A stretch of 6,304 nucleotides of DNA from Gemmatimonadota bacterium (GTDB lineage Bacteria; JBHIER01; G020348925). The notes beneath the pieces are model-generated. The model saw only the letters and a program-made list of their open reading frames with translations. It was not told the DNA's origin and searched no databases. The position numbers were made by a program, and so were the translations under genes. Position 1 is the first letter of the stretch. Every line of letters starts with the position of its first letter. The DNA is taken from the NCBI GenBank assembly GCA_020348925.1, contig CP070758.1, positions 4,775,921 through 4,782,224 of the forward strand. The letters are read 5' to 3'. Of the stretch, positions 570-6,304 are shown in pieces.

Positions 570-2534
570 TTACGTTTCGAGAATGACGTTCACTAAGGTC
601 ATCACATCCTGAAGGTCGATGGTCCCATCCTGGTTCACATCGGCGAGTCGCTGGCGCGTCGGGGTCGGCCCGTATATGCCCAAAATGATGTTCGCTATCC
701 GGACAAGATCGAAAACATCCAGTGTCCCATCACAATTTACATCCCCCATCTGAACCTGGGTCTGAAACCAGCCGAAGATGCGCTGAAGCACATCCGCCCT
801 CAGATCGAAGGACCTGGCTATGTTGTGAAATTCGACGATCGCTTCGAAGCCGATGGCAAAATAGACGATCTTATAATTGTCAATATAACGAAGCGCCGCC
901 GTGCGATCCGAACCGCGATAGGTGAGTACCGGATAGGCATCCTCCAGGGGTACGATCTCGTCCGGACTGTTCTGATTGGCCGCACCGTAATCCCCGCTGA
1001 CGATGGATAATAGATTCAATTGACCTGCGATGGGATCGTCCGGGACCGGATCCAGCCAGACATCGTTGCTGCTGTCGGCTACAAACTCGGCACGGAGATA
1101 GTCTCTGAGAAAGGATGAACCTTGGAGATCTGAGGCGATGTCCTGACCACTGATGAGAAGATTTCCTCCTGCGTCCAAATACGCGGTCAGGACTGCCTCC
1201 TCCTCGGGCTTGATGGTGGGATCGGACACGCCGGTGAACCAGATGACGATGTCATAAGCTGTCAGGAGGTCCGCAGCCGGAGTTCCGTCTGAAGGTGTGT
1301 TCCAGACATGATAGGTCTCACCCCGGTCATATAGGGCCATAGTGTAGAATTTTTCGGCATTGTAGCCCCAGGGAAGAGCTGAAGGGGAGTGGTCGTCGTT
1401 GACGATGAGGATATCCGGTTTGCCGATAAGGATCTCGATCACCTCTCGGGATGAAGCCTGGCCCCCGTTGGCCCTGACCGTGACGGTTAGATGCGTGTAG
1501 TGGACCTCCACGTTCTGACTGACCTGGAGTACAAGGGGTGCGGTGGCGTTGTCGACTGTGGAGTTGAGGGGGATGTCCTCGAGTTGGACGTCAGAGGTGA
1601 GGATTGAGATATCGGGATCGTCGCTGGTCAGCGTAGCCGAGACGCCTGTGGCCAGAGGTCCGTAATTTCTGACAGAGAATGTTACGTCGACCATCTCACC
1701 CATCTCGAAGTTGGAGTCGCCGTCACCTCCGGTGTCGAGAAGATCCAAGTCGAGAATTGAGACGGCTGTGAAGATTCGGGACTTTGTTGCCTGGATCACT
1801 TCGAAGGTCGAGGTGTCTTGGACGAAGACGACGAAGCCGCAGTGTTCGGGTATCCATTCGGGATCGAGGGTAAAATTTCGAGAGATATCGAGGGACTGGC
1901 CCTCTTGGATGGAGAAGGGCTGGCCGTTGCCGTCAGGGTACATTTTCCGCATGACGTGGTCATGGAGCAGAAGCCCGTTCGAGGCCTCGTATTCGATTTC
2001 GGATTCGGTCAGGACGAATTGAATGACGACGTCCGGAGAAGAGATCTCCTCCGAAGATGTAATGTGCGCCTGAACCCTCTCGTCCGATCCGTCGAGATCG
2101 AAGCCGAGGGTCATCTCCAGCGGAATCTCTTGTTGACTTCTCTGTTCCAGCAGAGCAACCCATAACTCCCAGGGATCGTCCATGTCGTAGGCATCATCGT
2201 CACCGACCCCGTCGAAAAAGAGGCGGGGCACGTACCACACCTTTTCCCCACTGTGTTCGGGATAGAAATCGACTCGCGCCTCGTTTTCTTCCCTGTTCGC
2301 GTTGTAGAAGGGATCGCTCGGGGACGGCCACCAGACGTGGTAGGAAATGAGGGCCAGATCTTCAGCGTTCAGCTGTTCAAGGACCGCCACACGGGGGTCC
2401 GCCTCCGCACAGCCCCGTCACGACGTGTTGGTGAAAAGCTCTCCCAGGACCATGCGCCGGGCTGCACCCACAGGGCCGGAGAGAGCACAAGAAAGAGACA
2501 GCGAAAGAACGAAGGCGGCCATGCTTCGTGTCAT
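570..2534 (-). CDS. Secreted selenoprotein candidate: Sec-thioredoxin/Omp28-like protein with Ig-like, GATase-like and dockerin domains (copy 1)
   Basis: Reads 654 residues from ATG at 2534 to TAA at 572-570 if the TGA at 2420-2418 (codon 39) is read as selenocysteine. Order: signal peptide, about 1-25 (MTRSMAAFVLSLSLSCAL, AxA-type end near GAA); thioredoxin-like domain with FTNTS-U-R-G-C (residues 34-42), then ADPRVAVLEQ, ISYHVWWPSPSDPFY and the cis-Pro-type VPRLFFDG (102-109); Omp28-like beta region about 138-254 (MRKMYPDGNGQPF, CGFVVFVQD); Ig/CARDB-like domain about 256-370; GATase-like alpha/beta domain about 373-590 (DILIVNDD, YDIVIWFTG, DAGGNLLISGQD, no obvious catalytic Cys); type I dockerin 597-654 with two Ca-binding repeats (DVNCDGTLD, DVNQDGTID). 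The start at 2534 places 38 codons before the TGA, exactly as in copy 2. An alternative in-frame ATG at 2582 has GGAGG only 3 bases upstream. A start at GTG 2390 would remove signal peptide and redox motif. Role inferred: extracytoplasmic thiol/selenol redox protein. Confidence 0.85.
2373..2412 (-). promoter_or_regulatory. Candidate bacterial SECIS hairpin of copy 1
   Basis: On the mRNA, counting from the base after the UGA: outer pairing CUGU (+6 to +9) with ACAG (+42 to +45); apical stem GGACC (+18 to +22, bases 2400-2396) with GGUCC (+33 to +37, bases 2385-2381); loop CCCGUGUGGC, where two more C-G pairs are possible. Bacterial SECIS elements lie inside the coding region directly after the UGA, with a short apical loop carrying an early G roughly 16-37 bases downstream. 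This hairpin fits that geometry. The stem and loop are identical in copy 2. SelB binding is inferred, not shown. Confidence 0.65.
2418..2420 (-). other. In-frame TGA, candidate selenocysteine codon (copy 1, Sec39)
   Basis: Reading codons on the minus strand: ACC AAC ACG TCG TGA CGG GGC TGT GCG gives T-N-T-S-U-R-G-C-A. The family motif at this place is FTNTS-C-x-x-C, so the TGA sits exactly on the first, attacking cysteine of the redox pair. The frame is open from the start codon to the TGA and for 615 codons after it. Confidence 0.85.
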
Positions 2535-2551
2535 GGCCGCCTTGTCTCTTT
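2492..2551 (-). repeat. Long inverted repeat / RNA hairpin over the start region of copy 1
   Basis: AAGGCGGCCATG (2512-2523) is a perfect 12-bp inverted repeat of CATGGCCGCCTT (2532-2543) with an 8-base loop. Outside it, AAAGAGAC (2492-2499) pairs perfectly with GTCTCTTT (2544-2551), leaving a one-sided 12-base bulge (2500-2511). On the mRNA, the ATG at 2534 lies at the loop end of the 5' arm, and the weak AAGG ribosome-site-like bases lie within the same arm. The structure is the strongest inverted repeat I see in the window and could hide the initiation site, couple translation to the upstream gene, or favour the ATG at 2582. It has no counterpart at the start of copy 2. Confidence 0.75.
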
Positions 2552-2591
2552 GAATCCAAAAGAGGTGAAAAGAAAATTTCATAGACCTCCA

Positions 2592-4544
2592 TTAGCCGCC
2601 CAGAATGATGTTTACCAGGACGATGGCGTCAATGATGTTGATGGCTCCGTCTTCGTTCACATCAGCCGCCCACGCCTGACCGGGTGTCGGCTGGTGCGTT
2701 CCCAAGACGATGTTCACCACCCAGACCACATCAATGATGTCGACGTTCCCGTTTTCATTCACATCGCCGATCTGAGGCTCAAACTCAAACCAGTCGAAAA
2801 TTCTCTGAAGGAAATCCGCCCGCATATTGAAGGAATTGGCCACATCGTAGAATTCGACGAGCGACTCGAACCCAAAGGCGAAGTAGACGAGTCGGTAGTC
2901 GTTCATGTACCGGAGAGCTGCCGTACGGCCGGAGTTATAGTACGTAAGTATGGGCATAGCATCTCCGAGAGGCGCTATCTCGTCCGGGCTGTCCTGGTTG
3001 GCCGCCCCGTAATCGCCGCTGGCGAGGGACAGCATGCTCAATTCGCCTGTGATCGGGTCAGCCGTGGGATTGAGCCAGATGTCGCTGCTGCTGTCGGCCA
3101 CAAACTCGGCGTGGAGGTAATCGCTGAGAAAGGATGATCCCTGAAGATCGGAAGCGATATCCTGACCACTGATGATGAGGTTTCCGCCTGCATCGAGATA
3201 GGCCGTCAGGACGGCCTCGTCCTCAGGTGTGATGGTGGGATCGGAGGCGCCGGTGAACCAGATAACGATGTCATAGGATAGCAGGACGTCAGCCCCCGGG
3301 GTCTCTACCAATGTGGTGTTCCAGACGTGATAGGTCTCATCCCGGTCGTAGAGGGCCATTTTGTAGAACCCCTCTGCGTTGTAATCCCAGGGGAAGACCG
3401 CAGGGATGTGGTCATCGTTGACGATGAGGATGTTGGGCTTGCCGACGAGGATCTCGATCTCCTCCTCAAAGGTGACCTGGCCGCCGTTGGCCGTGAGGGT
3501 GATGGTTATATCGGTGAAGTGGACCTCAACGTCCTGGCTGACCTGGAAGACGAGAGGAACAGTTGTATTGTCGACCGTGCCGTTGAGGGGGATGTCGTCG
3601 AGCTGAACGTCAGAGGTGAGGATGGAGACGTCTGGATCGTCACAGGTGAGCGTGGCCGAGACGCCTGTGGCCAAAGGACCGTAATTTCTCACGGAGAAGG
3701 TGACGTCCACGCTTTCCCCCTGCTCGAAGTTGCCGTCGCCATCTCCTCCGGAGTCGATGAGGTCGTATTCGATCACTGAGACCGAGGTGAGGATCCTGGA
3801 TTTTGTGGCTTGGATGACCTCAAAGGTGGCATTGTCCTGGACGAAGACGACGAAGCCGCAGTGTTCGGGCATCCAACCGGGATCGAGGGTAAAATCTCGG
3901 GAAATATCAAGGTGTTGACCCCCTTGAATAGTGAAAGGTTCGCCGTTGCCGTCCGGGTACATTTTTCGCATGACGTTGTGATGGATATTGGAGCCGTTTG
4001 TCGCCTCATACGCGATCTCTGATTCGGTGAGGACGAAGTGGATGACAACATTCGGAGCATCGAGGGTCTGTTCAGCAGTGATGTGAGCATGGACGGTGCC
4101 GTTCGTACCGTCGAAATCGAAATCGAGGGTCATCTCCAGGGGACTCTCCGTCAGATTCCTGTCGGTTATCATGTTGGGCCAGGTGTCATCGTCGTACAAG
4201 TATTGGCCGTCGATGAAACCATCGAAGAACATACGCGGAACGTACCAGCCACCTTCAATAGGATCGTCCGGGTAGAAATTGATTCTCCCCTCGTTCTCTT
4301 CGACATTGGCCAAGTAGAACGGATCATCATCGCCCGGCCACCATCCGTGAAACTCGATGAGGGCCAGGTTTTCAGCGTTGCTCTGATCAAGGACCGCCAC
4401 ACGGGGGTCCGCTTCTCCGCAGCCGCCTCACGATGTGTTCGTGAAGTACTCGCCCAGGACCATCCGCTCTGCGGATTGTGCCTGGTAGGAGAGAACGGAG
4501 ACGAGGGCAACTGTGAAGATGAGTCCAATGATCGCCCTTTTCAT
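2592..4544 (-). CDS. Secreted selenoprotein candidate: Sec-thioredoxin/Omp28-like protein with Ig-like, GATase-like and dockerin domains (copy 2)
   Basis: Reads 650 residues from ATG at 4544 to TAA at 2594-2592 if the TGA at 4430-4428 (codon 39) is selenocysteine. The start is well supported: AAGGAGGAGGT ends 5 bases before it, and the N-terminus MKRAIIGLIFTVALVSVLS...QAQSA is a classic Sec signal peptide. Then follow FTNTS-U-G-G-C (34-42), GEADPRVAVLDQ, FHGWWPGDDDPFY, VPRMFFDG (102-109), an Omp28-like region with MRKMYPDGNGEPF and CGFVVFVQD, an Ig/CARDB-like domain with VTFSVRNYGPLATGVSATLT, a GATase-like domain (NILIVNDD, YDIVIWFTG, DAGGNLIISGQD) and a type I dockerin 593-650 (DVNENGNVD, DVNEDGAIN). 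By eye most of the middle is about three-quarters identical to copy 1, so the pair is a tandem duplication. Copy 1 follows 57 bases downstream. Apart from the TGA, no frameshift or stop interrupts it. Confidence 0.87.
4383..4422 (-). promoter_or_regulatory. Candidate bacterial SECIS hairpin of copy 2
   Basis: Same position and fold as in copy 1: outer CUG (+6 to +8 after UGA) with CAG (+43 to +45); apical GGACC (bases 4410-4406) with GGUCC (bases 4395-4391); loop CCCGUGUGGC. The 26 bases from +16 to +41 are identical between the two copies, whereas flanking bases differ, including an R-G-C versus G-G-C codon context directly after the TGA. This local conservation is consistent with an RNA-level constraint. 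Confidence 0.65.
4428..4430 (-). other. In-frame TGA, candidate selenocysteine codon (copy 2, Sec39)
   Basis: Minus-strand codons ACG AAC ACA TCG TGA GGC GGC TGC GGA give T-N-T-S-U-G-G-C-G. The TGA is at the same residue number (39) and the same alignment column as in copy 1, on the first cysteine position of CxxC. Other stop codons do not occur in frame until the TAA at 2594. Confidence 0.87.
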
Positions 4545-4548
4545 GGTC

Positions 4549-4559
4549 ACCTCCTCCTT
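4549..4559 (-). promoter_or_regulatory. Strong Shine-Dalgarno site of copy 2
   Basis: AAGGAGGAGGT on the minus strand, with 5 bases between its last GG and the ATG at 4544. It matters because it fixes the true start 38 codons before the in-frame TGA, and so argues against initiation at the GTG (4400) after the TGA. Confidence 0.85.
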
Positions 4560-4600
4560 GTGATAGGGTGAAACGTGAAACAGAAACCCCACACCACACC

Positions 4601-4768
4601 TCATCCACCCAGAATAATATTGACGAGAACGACGGCATCAACAATATTGACCGCGCCGTCCTCATTCACATCCGCCGCCCAGCTTTGTCCGGATGTCGGG
4701 GCGTGTGTTCCCAAGATGATGTGGAGAGGGAACAGAGCGGCCGTAACGACCAGCGCGAGCAGGAGCAT
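4601..4768 (-). pseudogene. Collapsed third copy: signal-peptide core fused to half a dockerin
   Basis: From the ATG at 4768 the product is 55 residues: MLLLALVVTAALFPL, then HIILGTHAPTSGQSWAADV, then NEDGAVNIVDAVVLVNIILGG, TGA stop at 4603-4601. The part from HIILGTH onward (about 4723 down) matches the last 40 residues of copy 2 (IVLGTHQPTPGQAWAADV...) in protein and DNA. The beginning is a signal-peptide hydrophobic core. Everything between, about 570 residues including the redox motif, is missing, so this looks like an internal deletion of a third paralogue. AGAAGG lies 6 bases before the ATG. A better site, AAAGGAGG (4798-4791), lies 4 bases before an in-frame ATC (4786-4784), perhaps the decayed original start; GTG at 4774 is another option. 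One complete Ca-binding repeat remains, so a small secreted dockerin peptide cannot be excluded. Confidence 0.7.
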
Positions 4769-4811
4769 AATCACCCTTCTTAAGATCGTGCCTCCTTTCG
4801 TAAAGAGGTGG

Positions 4812-4851
4812 GTTGATTGTATCAACGGCTGTAACGAAAACCGTTACAGCC
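4812..4851. repeat. Two adjacent inverted repeats after the barrel gene
   Basis: GGCTGTAACG (4827-4836) and CGTTACAGCC (4842-4851) form a perfect 10-bp stem with a 5-base loop; the TAA stop of the barrel gene (4846-4844) is inside one arm. Immediately beside it GTTGAT (4812-4817) and ATCAAC (4821-4826) form a 6-bp stem with a 3-base loop. On the minus-strand transcript no U-run follows, so this is more likely an mRNA processing or stabilising structure, or a partial terminator between the barrel gene and the dockerin genes, than a full intrinsic terminator. Confidence 0.6.
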
Positions 4852-6304
4852 TACTGAATAATTTGACTTCAATACCTTCAAACTCGGGTTCGAGGCGACA
4901 TACGCCACCGGCGCAGAGAAAGCCGGCCTGGCGTGAACCGTACATGACAGACAGGTCATGATTCGGTGATATATTAATATCAAACTTGCCGAAAAGCCAA
5001 AGGTTTTTTTCGTCCGGCCTGTTCTGGAGTTTTTCTTGAAGGTCGGACGTGTTGGTCCACTCCCCTACGAGGCTCAAGGTGTATTTCGGAGAGTGGGCGT
5101 ATTCCAGCGAGTAGATCTGGTTATCGAACTCACCCAGCAACTCCGAATCCGTGTGCTGGTGTTGGAAGACGAAGCGGAAACTGTTTACAGGATCGAGAGA
5201 ATATGTGAACTCAAAAACAGGGGTGATATACGTATCCTGTCTCTGCTTTGAAAGACCCAAGGCTCCAATAGTAAAGAAGTCGTCGCTGAAATGATGTTCT
5301 ATTTCGCCATAAATCTCCTCGTACAGCGTGTTTCCTTCTCCTAAGATCGTTTTGCCCTCATGATCCTTTGTCAGGCTGTAGTTGGCGAGAAGGGACGTCT
5401 TCGGTGTGGGAGAGAAGGTGGCTTCGATCTGTATTCCGGCTTCATCATCGGCATTCAGAAGGTACGGATGTCTGTTCAGCAATGTGTACGAATGTTCACG
5501 AATGAGAGCCGGTGGATTGTTGTATGTTACAAAATGGTCATCCGACAGGAAGAAGAAATTATGATAGTATTTGTATTCGCAACTTAATCCGAAACCTGCT
5601 GTCGTAAAACTCGTTGAGAAATAGGCTCCAGTGCCTTTAGAATTTGTCTTCTTCCCGTATTCACCGTAGAGATCCAACATCCACGTCTCCTGTGAAAGGG
5701 AAAGCTGCGTTCTCCCCGAGGTGATCTCCGCCTTCTGGCGAAGATTCGGACTGTTGCTCACATAACTGCCGCCGAATGCTACTCCATCCAACAGATTCAG
5801 GTTAAGATCAGCCCCATGTATCAGGTCTGTCCTTTGATCTGAAGGGCCTTCGGGTCTGCCGGAGAGAAAGGTGGCTGAAAGCCGATCGTAGCTGACATCG
5901 AACTTCACCCCTTCCAGATTATTATCGACACGGATATCACGATCCTCGTATGTGCGAAGGGTCATTCCTCTACCGAACATGGCGTAGTAATTACCGACGC
6001 GAGCCTGGATATTATCGTGATGATATTCAAAATAACGAAAGGTGATCCCCTCTTCCACAGGGTCAGTCCCGGGGAACTGTAAGGATGGGTCTTTGGGCTG
6101 ATAGAGCTCCATTCTCAATCCTGCGGTGAAATTGTCGAAGTAGAAGTCGGCATCGAGCCAGTTCTCGAGAATCTCATCGTTCGTCTCTGTGGAAAAGGAG
6201 TATTCCATGTGGTTGGCCAGGCTGGTCGTCAGACCGCCAAACATCTGGGCCTTGAGTGGCAGAGACAATGCCGTGAGTACCATCAGCATGAATACAAGCA
6301 GGAA
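4844..6304 (-). CDS. DUF6029-like outer-membrane beta-barrel protein, N-terminus outside the window
   Basis: The frame is open to the right edge; an ATG at 6289 gives 481 residues, but the codons before it (F-L-L-V-F) continue a signal-peptide hydrophobic core (FLLVFMLMVLTALSLPLKAQ), so the real start is probably a few codons beyond the window. After the LKA-Q cleavage site there are long alternating beta strands rich in aromatic residues (ADFYFDNFTAGLRMELYQ, FRYFEYHHDNIQARVGNYY), typical of an outer-membrane barrel. The segment VGNYYAMFGRGMTLRTYEDR (about 98-117) followed by a DNNLEGVKF stretch resembles the DUF6029 family found in Bacteroidetes-like bacteria; this assignment is from memory of the family pattern. 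Near the end CAGGVC (Cys459 and Cys464 from ATG 6289) offers a CxxxxC pair. It ends with TAA at 4846-4844, 75 bases before the next reading frame, same strand, so co-transcription with the selenoprotein genes is likely. Function unknown. Confidence 0.72.
   Translation of the reverse strand, partial: FLLVFMLMVLTALSLPLKAQMFGGLTTSLANHMEYSFSTETNDEILENWLDADFYFDNFTAGLRMELYQPKDPSLQFPGTDPVEEGITFRYFEYHHDNIQARVGNYYAMFGRGMTLRTYEDRDIRVDNNLEGVKFDVSYDRLSATFLSGRPEGPSDQRTDLIHGADLNLNLLDGVAFGGSYVSNSPNLRQKAEITSGRTQLSLSQETWMLDLYGEYGKKTNSKGTGAYFSTSFTTAGFGLSCEYKYYHNFFFLSDDHFVTYNNPPALIREHSYTLLNRHPYLLNADDEAGIQIEATFSPTPKTSLLANYSLTKDHEGKTILGEGNTLYEEIYGEIEHHFSDDFFTIGALGLSKQRQDTYITPVFEFTYSLDPVNSFRFVFQHQHTDSELLGEFDNQIYSLEYAHSPKYTLSLVGEWTNTSDLQEKLQNRPDEKNLWLFGKFDINISPNHDLSVMYGSRQAGFLCAGGVCRLEPEFEGIEVKLFSRL

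Follow-up and report, generated by a model that had tools for sequence, protein, structure and literature searches.

Omp28-related selenoproteins were found in 2008 in ocean metagenomes as family GOS_C, with 74 selenocysteine (Sec) sequences (PMC2398784). GOS_C is listed in Table 1 of a 2026 catalogue (PMC13188914), and NCBIfam holds a model named "Omp28-related selenoprotein" (NF045500). HBP35 of Porphyromonas gingivalis (PDB 5Y1A) is a surface protein whose thioredoxin activity, measured in vitro, requires both of its cysteines (PMC2907840). We analyzed a 6,304-nucleotide stretch of DNA (hereafter, the window; positions 4775921-4782224 of a 5.04 Mb, single-contig genome of a Gemmatimonadota bacterium) that contains a tandem pair of Omp28-type genes, A and B, each interrupted by one in-frame UGA codon. 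Both genes very probably encode selenoproteins (probability about 0.93). Selenoproteins of this general kind are already known, but the divergent form encoded here, with an immunoglobulin (Ig)-like/ThuA-like module and a type I dockerin, appears to be undescribed.

Genes A and B resemble NF045500 and GOS_C in their Omp28/thioredoxin-like domain, their UxxC motif and the existence of Cys homologues, but they are longer, carry the dockerin and the Ig/ThuA-like module, and score far below the NF045500 cut-off. HBP35 has the same two-part fold, and Atu2684 (DUF1223 family; PDB 2AXO) has a thioredoxin-like fold; the CxxC motifs of both aligned with UxxC in a profile alignment. HBP35 differs from genes A and B in its CxxC, its other C-terminal domain and its low identity (15%), and hemin binding is not expected for A and B; Atu2684 has Cys and lacks a dockerin. 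Genes A and B are like cellulosome-type cohesin-dockerin assemblies in having a C-terminal type I dockerin in a genome with many cohesin-like domains, whereas their cargo would be a redox selenoprotein rather than a glycoside hydrolase, with the pairing inferred from domain matches.

Gene Pair and In-Frame UGA Codons

Gene A (window positions 2592..4544, minus strand) has 650 codons, UGA at codon 39 and a TAA stop, and is predicted to encode a secreted Omp28-type selenoprotein. A Shine-Dalgarno-like sequence, AAGGAGGAGGT, lies 4 nt ahead of its start (4549..4559, minus strand). Its tandem paralog, gene B (570..2534, minus strand), has 654 codons and also ends in TAA. Each gene contained exactly one internal stop, a TGA at the first position of the CxxC motif, at 4428..4430 in gene A (FTNTS-U-GG-C) and at 2418..2420 in gene B (FTNTS-U-RG-C), both on the minus strand. 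The original prediction, made from the letters of the window alone, had described these single TGA codons and their intact flanks, and both parts of that description held: a signal-peptide-like stretch and FTNTS precede the TGA in both genes, xxC follows it, and the frame then continues without a further stop for 611 codons in gene A and 615 in gene B. It had located the pair at 2418-4430, which corresponds to the span from one TGA to the other and not to the extents of the genes. The position given for the TGA, codon 39, is correct for gene A and applies to gene B only if translation begins at 2534. A second possible start, the ATG at 2582, lies upstream and has a better ribosome-binding site (GGAGGTCT-ATG); its use would make the UGA of gene B codon 55 instead of 39.

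The probability that a random frame stays free of stops for 611 codons is about 1.6e-10 at the local base composition, and the remaining two minus-strand frames of the gene A region carry 17 and 27 stops. The two proteins are 67% identical and dS (synonymous divergence) between the genes exceeds 1, so that the copies have diverged with frame and TGA both kept, as had been noted with the original prediction. The ratio of nonsynonymous to synonymous divergence (dN/dS) behind the TGA was about 0.23 over codons +1 to +210 (dN 0.26) and about 0.16 over the rest (dN 0.20), with dS >1. Downstream of the TGA, purifying selection acts on the encoded protein, in the unchanged frame. As with other selenoproteins, standard gene callers would end both genes too early, at the UGA, and so miss the active site.

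Selenocysteine Machinery of the Host Genome

SelA, SelB, SelD and tRNA-Sec(UCA), the machinery expected of a bacterium that makes selenoproteins, are all encoded in the host genome; a search for these genes had been proposed with the original prediction. One cluster at genome positions 2516704-2521319 contains selA, selB and selD, with scores of 520.8, 396.5 and 372 bits, respectively; selA and selB exceed their cut-offs. One tRNA-Sec scored over the cut-off (405376-405470) and was called tRNA-SeC with anticodon TCA by ARAGORN. The selD gene carries its own TGA at the usual Sec site (CAGUASK), which provides independent support for the reading of UGA as Sec in this genome.

Homologues and Sec/Cys Exchange

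Two further relatives were detected in the host genome. A third paralog (FANNS-U-VPC; genome positions 231721-233643) contains one TGA, which falls on the homologous site and is again codon 39, and a fourth gene (2643816-2644484) has Cys aligned to the UGA site (FTSTT-C-EPC). A search of 145 genomes detected homologues in the window's own genome and 14 others, and six contigs of Marinimicrobia and Planctomycetota were added from outside that search; no match was obtained among the plasmids searched. An alignment of 34 sequences from several phyla contained 19 UGA-type (UxxC) and 15 Cys-type (CxxC) members, and U occupied the column of the first CxxC Cys in 18 of the 19, the remaining one (L045, UAAC) being offset by two residues. 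The UGA of genes A and B thus aligns with the Cys of Cys-type homologues, including that of the CEPC paralog, and this is the alignment that had been put forward as a check on their selenoprotein status.

UGA copies occur in six of the 14 other genomes, and each of these six has SelA and a tRNA-Sec match over the cut-off; Cys copies alone are present in the three genomes that lack SelA. This co-occurrence is in the expected direction, although the numbers are small. One of the genomes examined (G129) gave a 75-nt match to the tRNA-Sec family slightly over the cut-off, which was judged to be an ordinary tRNA; SelA is absent from that genome. On the tree, the U/C label required about 10 changes, at least three of them forced by well-supported branches, indicating repeated exchange of Sec and Cys. 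These proteins widen a poorly described selenoprotein family to several phyla, in which Sec and Cys have been exchanged repeatedly, also among neighboring paralogs of one genome. With matched Sec/Cys pairs, the long-standing question of why some proteins retain Sec and others lose it becomes testable.

The surroundings of some homologues are also of interest. In one relative (G101), the tRNA-Sec gene lies about 1.6 kb from a UGA-type Omp28 gene (L064, G101:C58), and selA has a Cys-type Omp28 gene (L069, G101:C5) about 330 bp upstream of it; a functional or regulatory link is possible. The "internal TGA" of L069 in the search table is probably the ordinary stop of that gene, the motif of which is CQAC. 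In another lineage, five Omp28-like genes stand in tandem (G104:C186:34480-44335), with UGA, Cys and motif-less copies mixed.

Domain Architecture and Predicted Fold

The N-terminal part of the gene A product (3795..4469, minus strand) was modeled by AlphaFold2 as a thioredoxin fold joined to an Omp28 beta-sandwich domain (predicted local distance difference test, pLDDT, 92). Its closest solved structures were HBP35 (Z 23.7, root-mean-square deviation 2.6, 222 residues), Atu2684 (Z 19.0) and Omp28 (Z 9.4, beta-sandwich part only). The Pfam Omp28 family (PF11551) matched the two genes with 50.3 and 54.9 bits against a gathering cut-off of 34.9 (3e-13 for gene A), and DUF1223 was over the Pfam cut-off in gene B. 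In the aligned N-terminal domain, AlphaFold2 placed U31 just before helix 32-47 and the invariant P95 before strand 96-99. In the predicted structure, U/C-x-x-C thus stands at the N-terminal end of helix 1 with the conserved proline loop opposite, as in a thioredoxin fold.

The middle part of the gene A product (2775..3797, minus strand) was predicted to be an Ig-like beta-sandwich followed by a ThuA/GATase-1-like module (pLDDT 84), with ThuA- and GATase-like structural neighbors at Z 13-16 and sub-threshold Pfam matches only. The corresponding part of gene B (750..1784, minus strand) is 73% identical to that of gene A, and the module is common to many other large proteins of the host genome. 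Both proteins end in a type I dockerin (PF00404, cut-off 22.9 bits), at 2604..2768 in gene A (47.2 bits; Dockerin_1 match 3e-12) and at 582..746 in gene B (38.1 bits), both on the minus strand. The third paralog has an additional sorting tail resembling those of the type IX secretion system (T9SS). The host genome contains around 100 dockerin-like matches and about 70 cohesin-like PF00963 matches over the cut-off, the latter mostly with modest scores; both numbers are unusually high for one bacterium. A real docking role for the dockerins is plausible, judging from these domain matches. The UGA-type homologues from Phycisphaerae have dockerin-like tails by eye, none of them over the Pfam cut-off.

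Putative SECIS Hairpins and Alternative Explanations

The published model of the bacterial Sec insertion sequence (bSECIS) calls for a hairpin 16-37 nt after the UGA, a G in the first two loop positions and a folding energy of at most -7.5 kcal/mol (PMC13188914). Genes A and B share an identical 26-nt stretch, the second longest in the gene, that begins 18 nt beyond the initial T of the TGA and contains the 20-mer GGACCCCCGTGTGGCGGTCC. This 20-mer can fold into a hairpin in which GGACC/GGUCC and CC/GG pairings, separated by one position on either side, enclose an apical GUGU loop 25 nt from the UGA. The putative bSECIS of gene A (4391..4410, minus strand) fits the model (-12.1 kcal/mol, GUGU, spacing 25). 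The putative element of gene B (2381..2400, minus strand) is the same 20-mer, and gene B fits via an alternative hairpin; the third paralog reached -7.2 kcal/mol. An Rfam scan of window positions 2300-4560 gave two matches only, both at chance level.

Several results weigh against the selenoprotein reading or against the function proposed with it. Compared with a codon-synonymous null, the best SECIS-like hairpin had p 0.475 in gene A and a borderline p 0.05 in gene B (0.66 in the third paralog), and the predicted hairpins of A and B were barely or not at all stronger than dinucleotide shuffles (z about 0). Strong SECIS evidence from any single gene was looked for without success, fold z-scores being near 0 to 0.8. 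Hairpins over the 19 UGA genes were stronger than the synonymous null (Fisher p 1.3e-4, a combined value that is inflated because the related sequences are not independent), whereas those over the 15 Cys genes were not (p 0.13), and the direct contrast of hairpin strength between the U and C groups was borderline only (p 0.055). The hairpins of genes A and B individually are therefore plausible but weak, and supportive only. The pairing of dockerins with cohesins comes from domain matches only.

If the TGA were a true stop, genes A and B would be decayed genes, or their downstream parts would have an initiation of their own at an internal GTG (position 4400 in gene A). Internal GTG starts are indeed present, and a dockerin remnant just upstream of gene A (4601-4771) indicates that copies in this cluster do decay. 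However, three diverged paralogs each retain a single TGA at one homologous site, dN/dS behind it is about 0.16-0.23, homologues have Cys at the TGA position, and a separately initiated product would lack the signal peptide as well as half the redox motif, which leaves a true stop very improbable. Even less probable is that UGA stands for an amino acid other than Sec, whether because the genome is recoded or because a tRNA that reads UGA carries a different residue. The frame would be open with any sense reading of UGA, but internal TGA codons are almost absent from the related frames listed in the host genome, the selA and selB frames are open without one, the UCA tRNA that was found is tRNA-Sec, and the UGA of selD sits at a known Sec site. 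Reading of the UGA as Sec is thus favored, and the conclusion of the original prediction that both genes encode selenoproteins was supported by the Sec machinery and the Cys homologues.

A separate explanation concerns novelty rather than selenoprotein status, namely that genes A and B are ordinary members of NF045500/GOS_C with nothing new about them. NF045500 was the best NCBIfam match for genes A and B and the third paralog and matched 33 of the 34 homologues, but the scores of these three (48.8, 39.9 and 52.7 bits, respectively) lie well under the curated cut-off of 200, and genes A and B have the added dockerin and Ig/ThuA-like modules. On these profile scores, the three genes are clearly related to NF045500, but not members by its cut-off. 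The literature searched, which left subscription papers largely outside, contained no selenoprotein paired with Omp28 or DUF1223 and no dockerin selenoprotein, the one text that mentions both selenoproteins and dockerins being concerned with carbohydrate-active enzyme domains. Ordinary membership thus seems unlikely, if much less so than either alternative to Sec. The suggestion that a protein of this kind may be undescribed has accordingly to be narrowed: Omp28-related selenoproteins are catalogued, and it is the dockerin-bearing, divergent form that was not found in the literature searched.

Proposed Function

We propose that the UGA of genes A and B is read as Sec by the ribosome with SelB, tRNA-Sec(UCA) and a SECIS hairpin just downstream, so that translation would run on to the TAA. 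The N-terminal domain would be exported and would adopt a thioredoxin fold with U-x-x-C at the start of its first helix. The selenolate may attack target disulfides (or peroxides or other oxidized thiols), and the Cys three residues after the Sec would then resolve the intermediate. The thioredoxin fold would be followed in order by the Omp28 beta-sandwich, the Ig-like/ThuA-like module and the type I dockerin, by which the protein is probably anchored to surface or secreted proteins that carry cohesins. By mechanism, genes A and B would encode exported UxxC thiol/selenol-disulfide oxidoreductases with a dockerin tether, which would place selenium chemistry on exported, dockerin-bearing proteins. 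A more tentative idea, to which we give somewhat less than an even chance, is that such Sec enzymes are displayed extracellularly on a cohesin-dockerin scaffold as a selenium redox module beside other secreted enzymes, within a superfamily marked by repeated Sec/Cys exchange across phyla.

Neighboring Sequences

In a small frame upstream of gene A (4601-4825, minus strand), a signal-peptide-like N-terminus is fused to the latter half of a dockerin that is 73% identical to that of gene A; this frame seems to be what is left of another copy that collapsed. A DUF6029 protein (4844-6289, minus strand; Pfam 3e-67) is encoded directly upstream of the selenoprotein pair. At the other end of the window, positions 1-509 contain a plus-strand FlgD_ig/T9SS-like tail overlapped by a minus-strand fragment in which a CHAT-like HLATHG motif was recognized by eye; these fragments are probably gene remnants.

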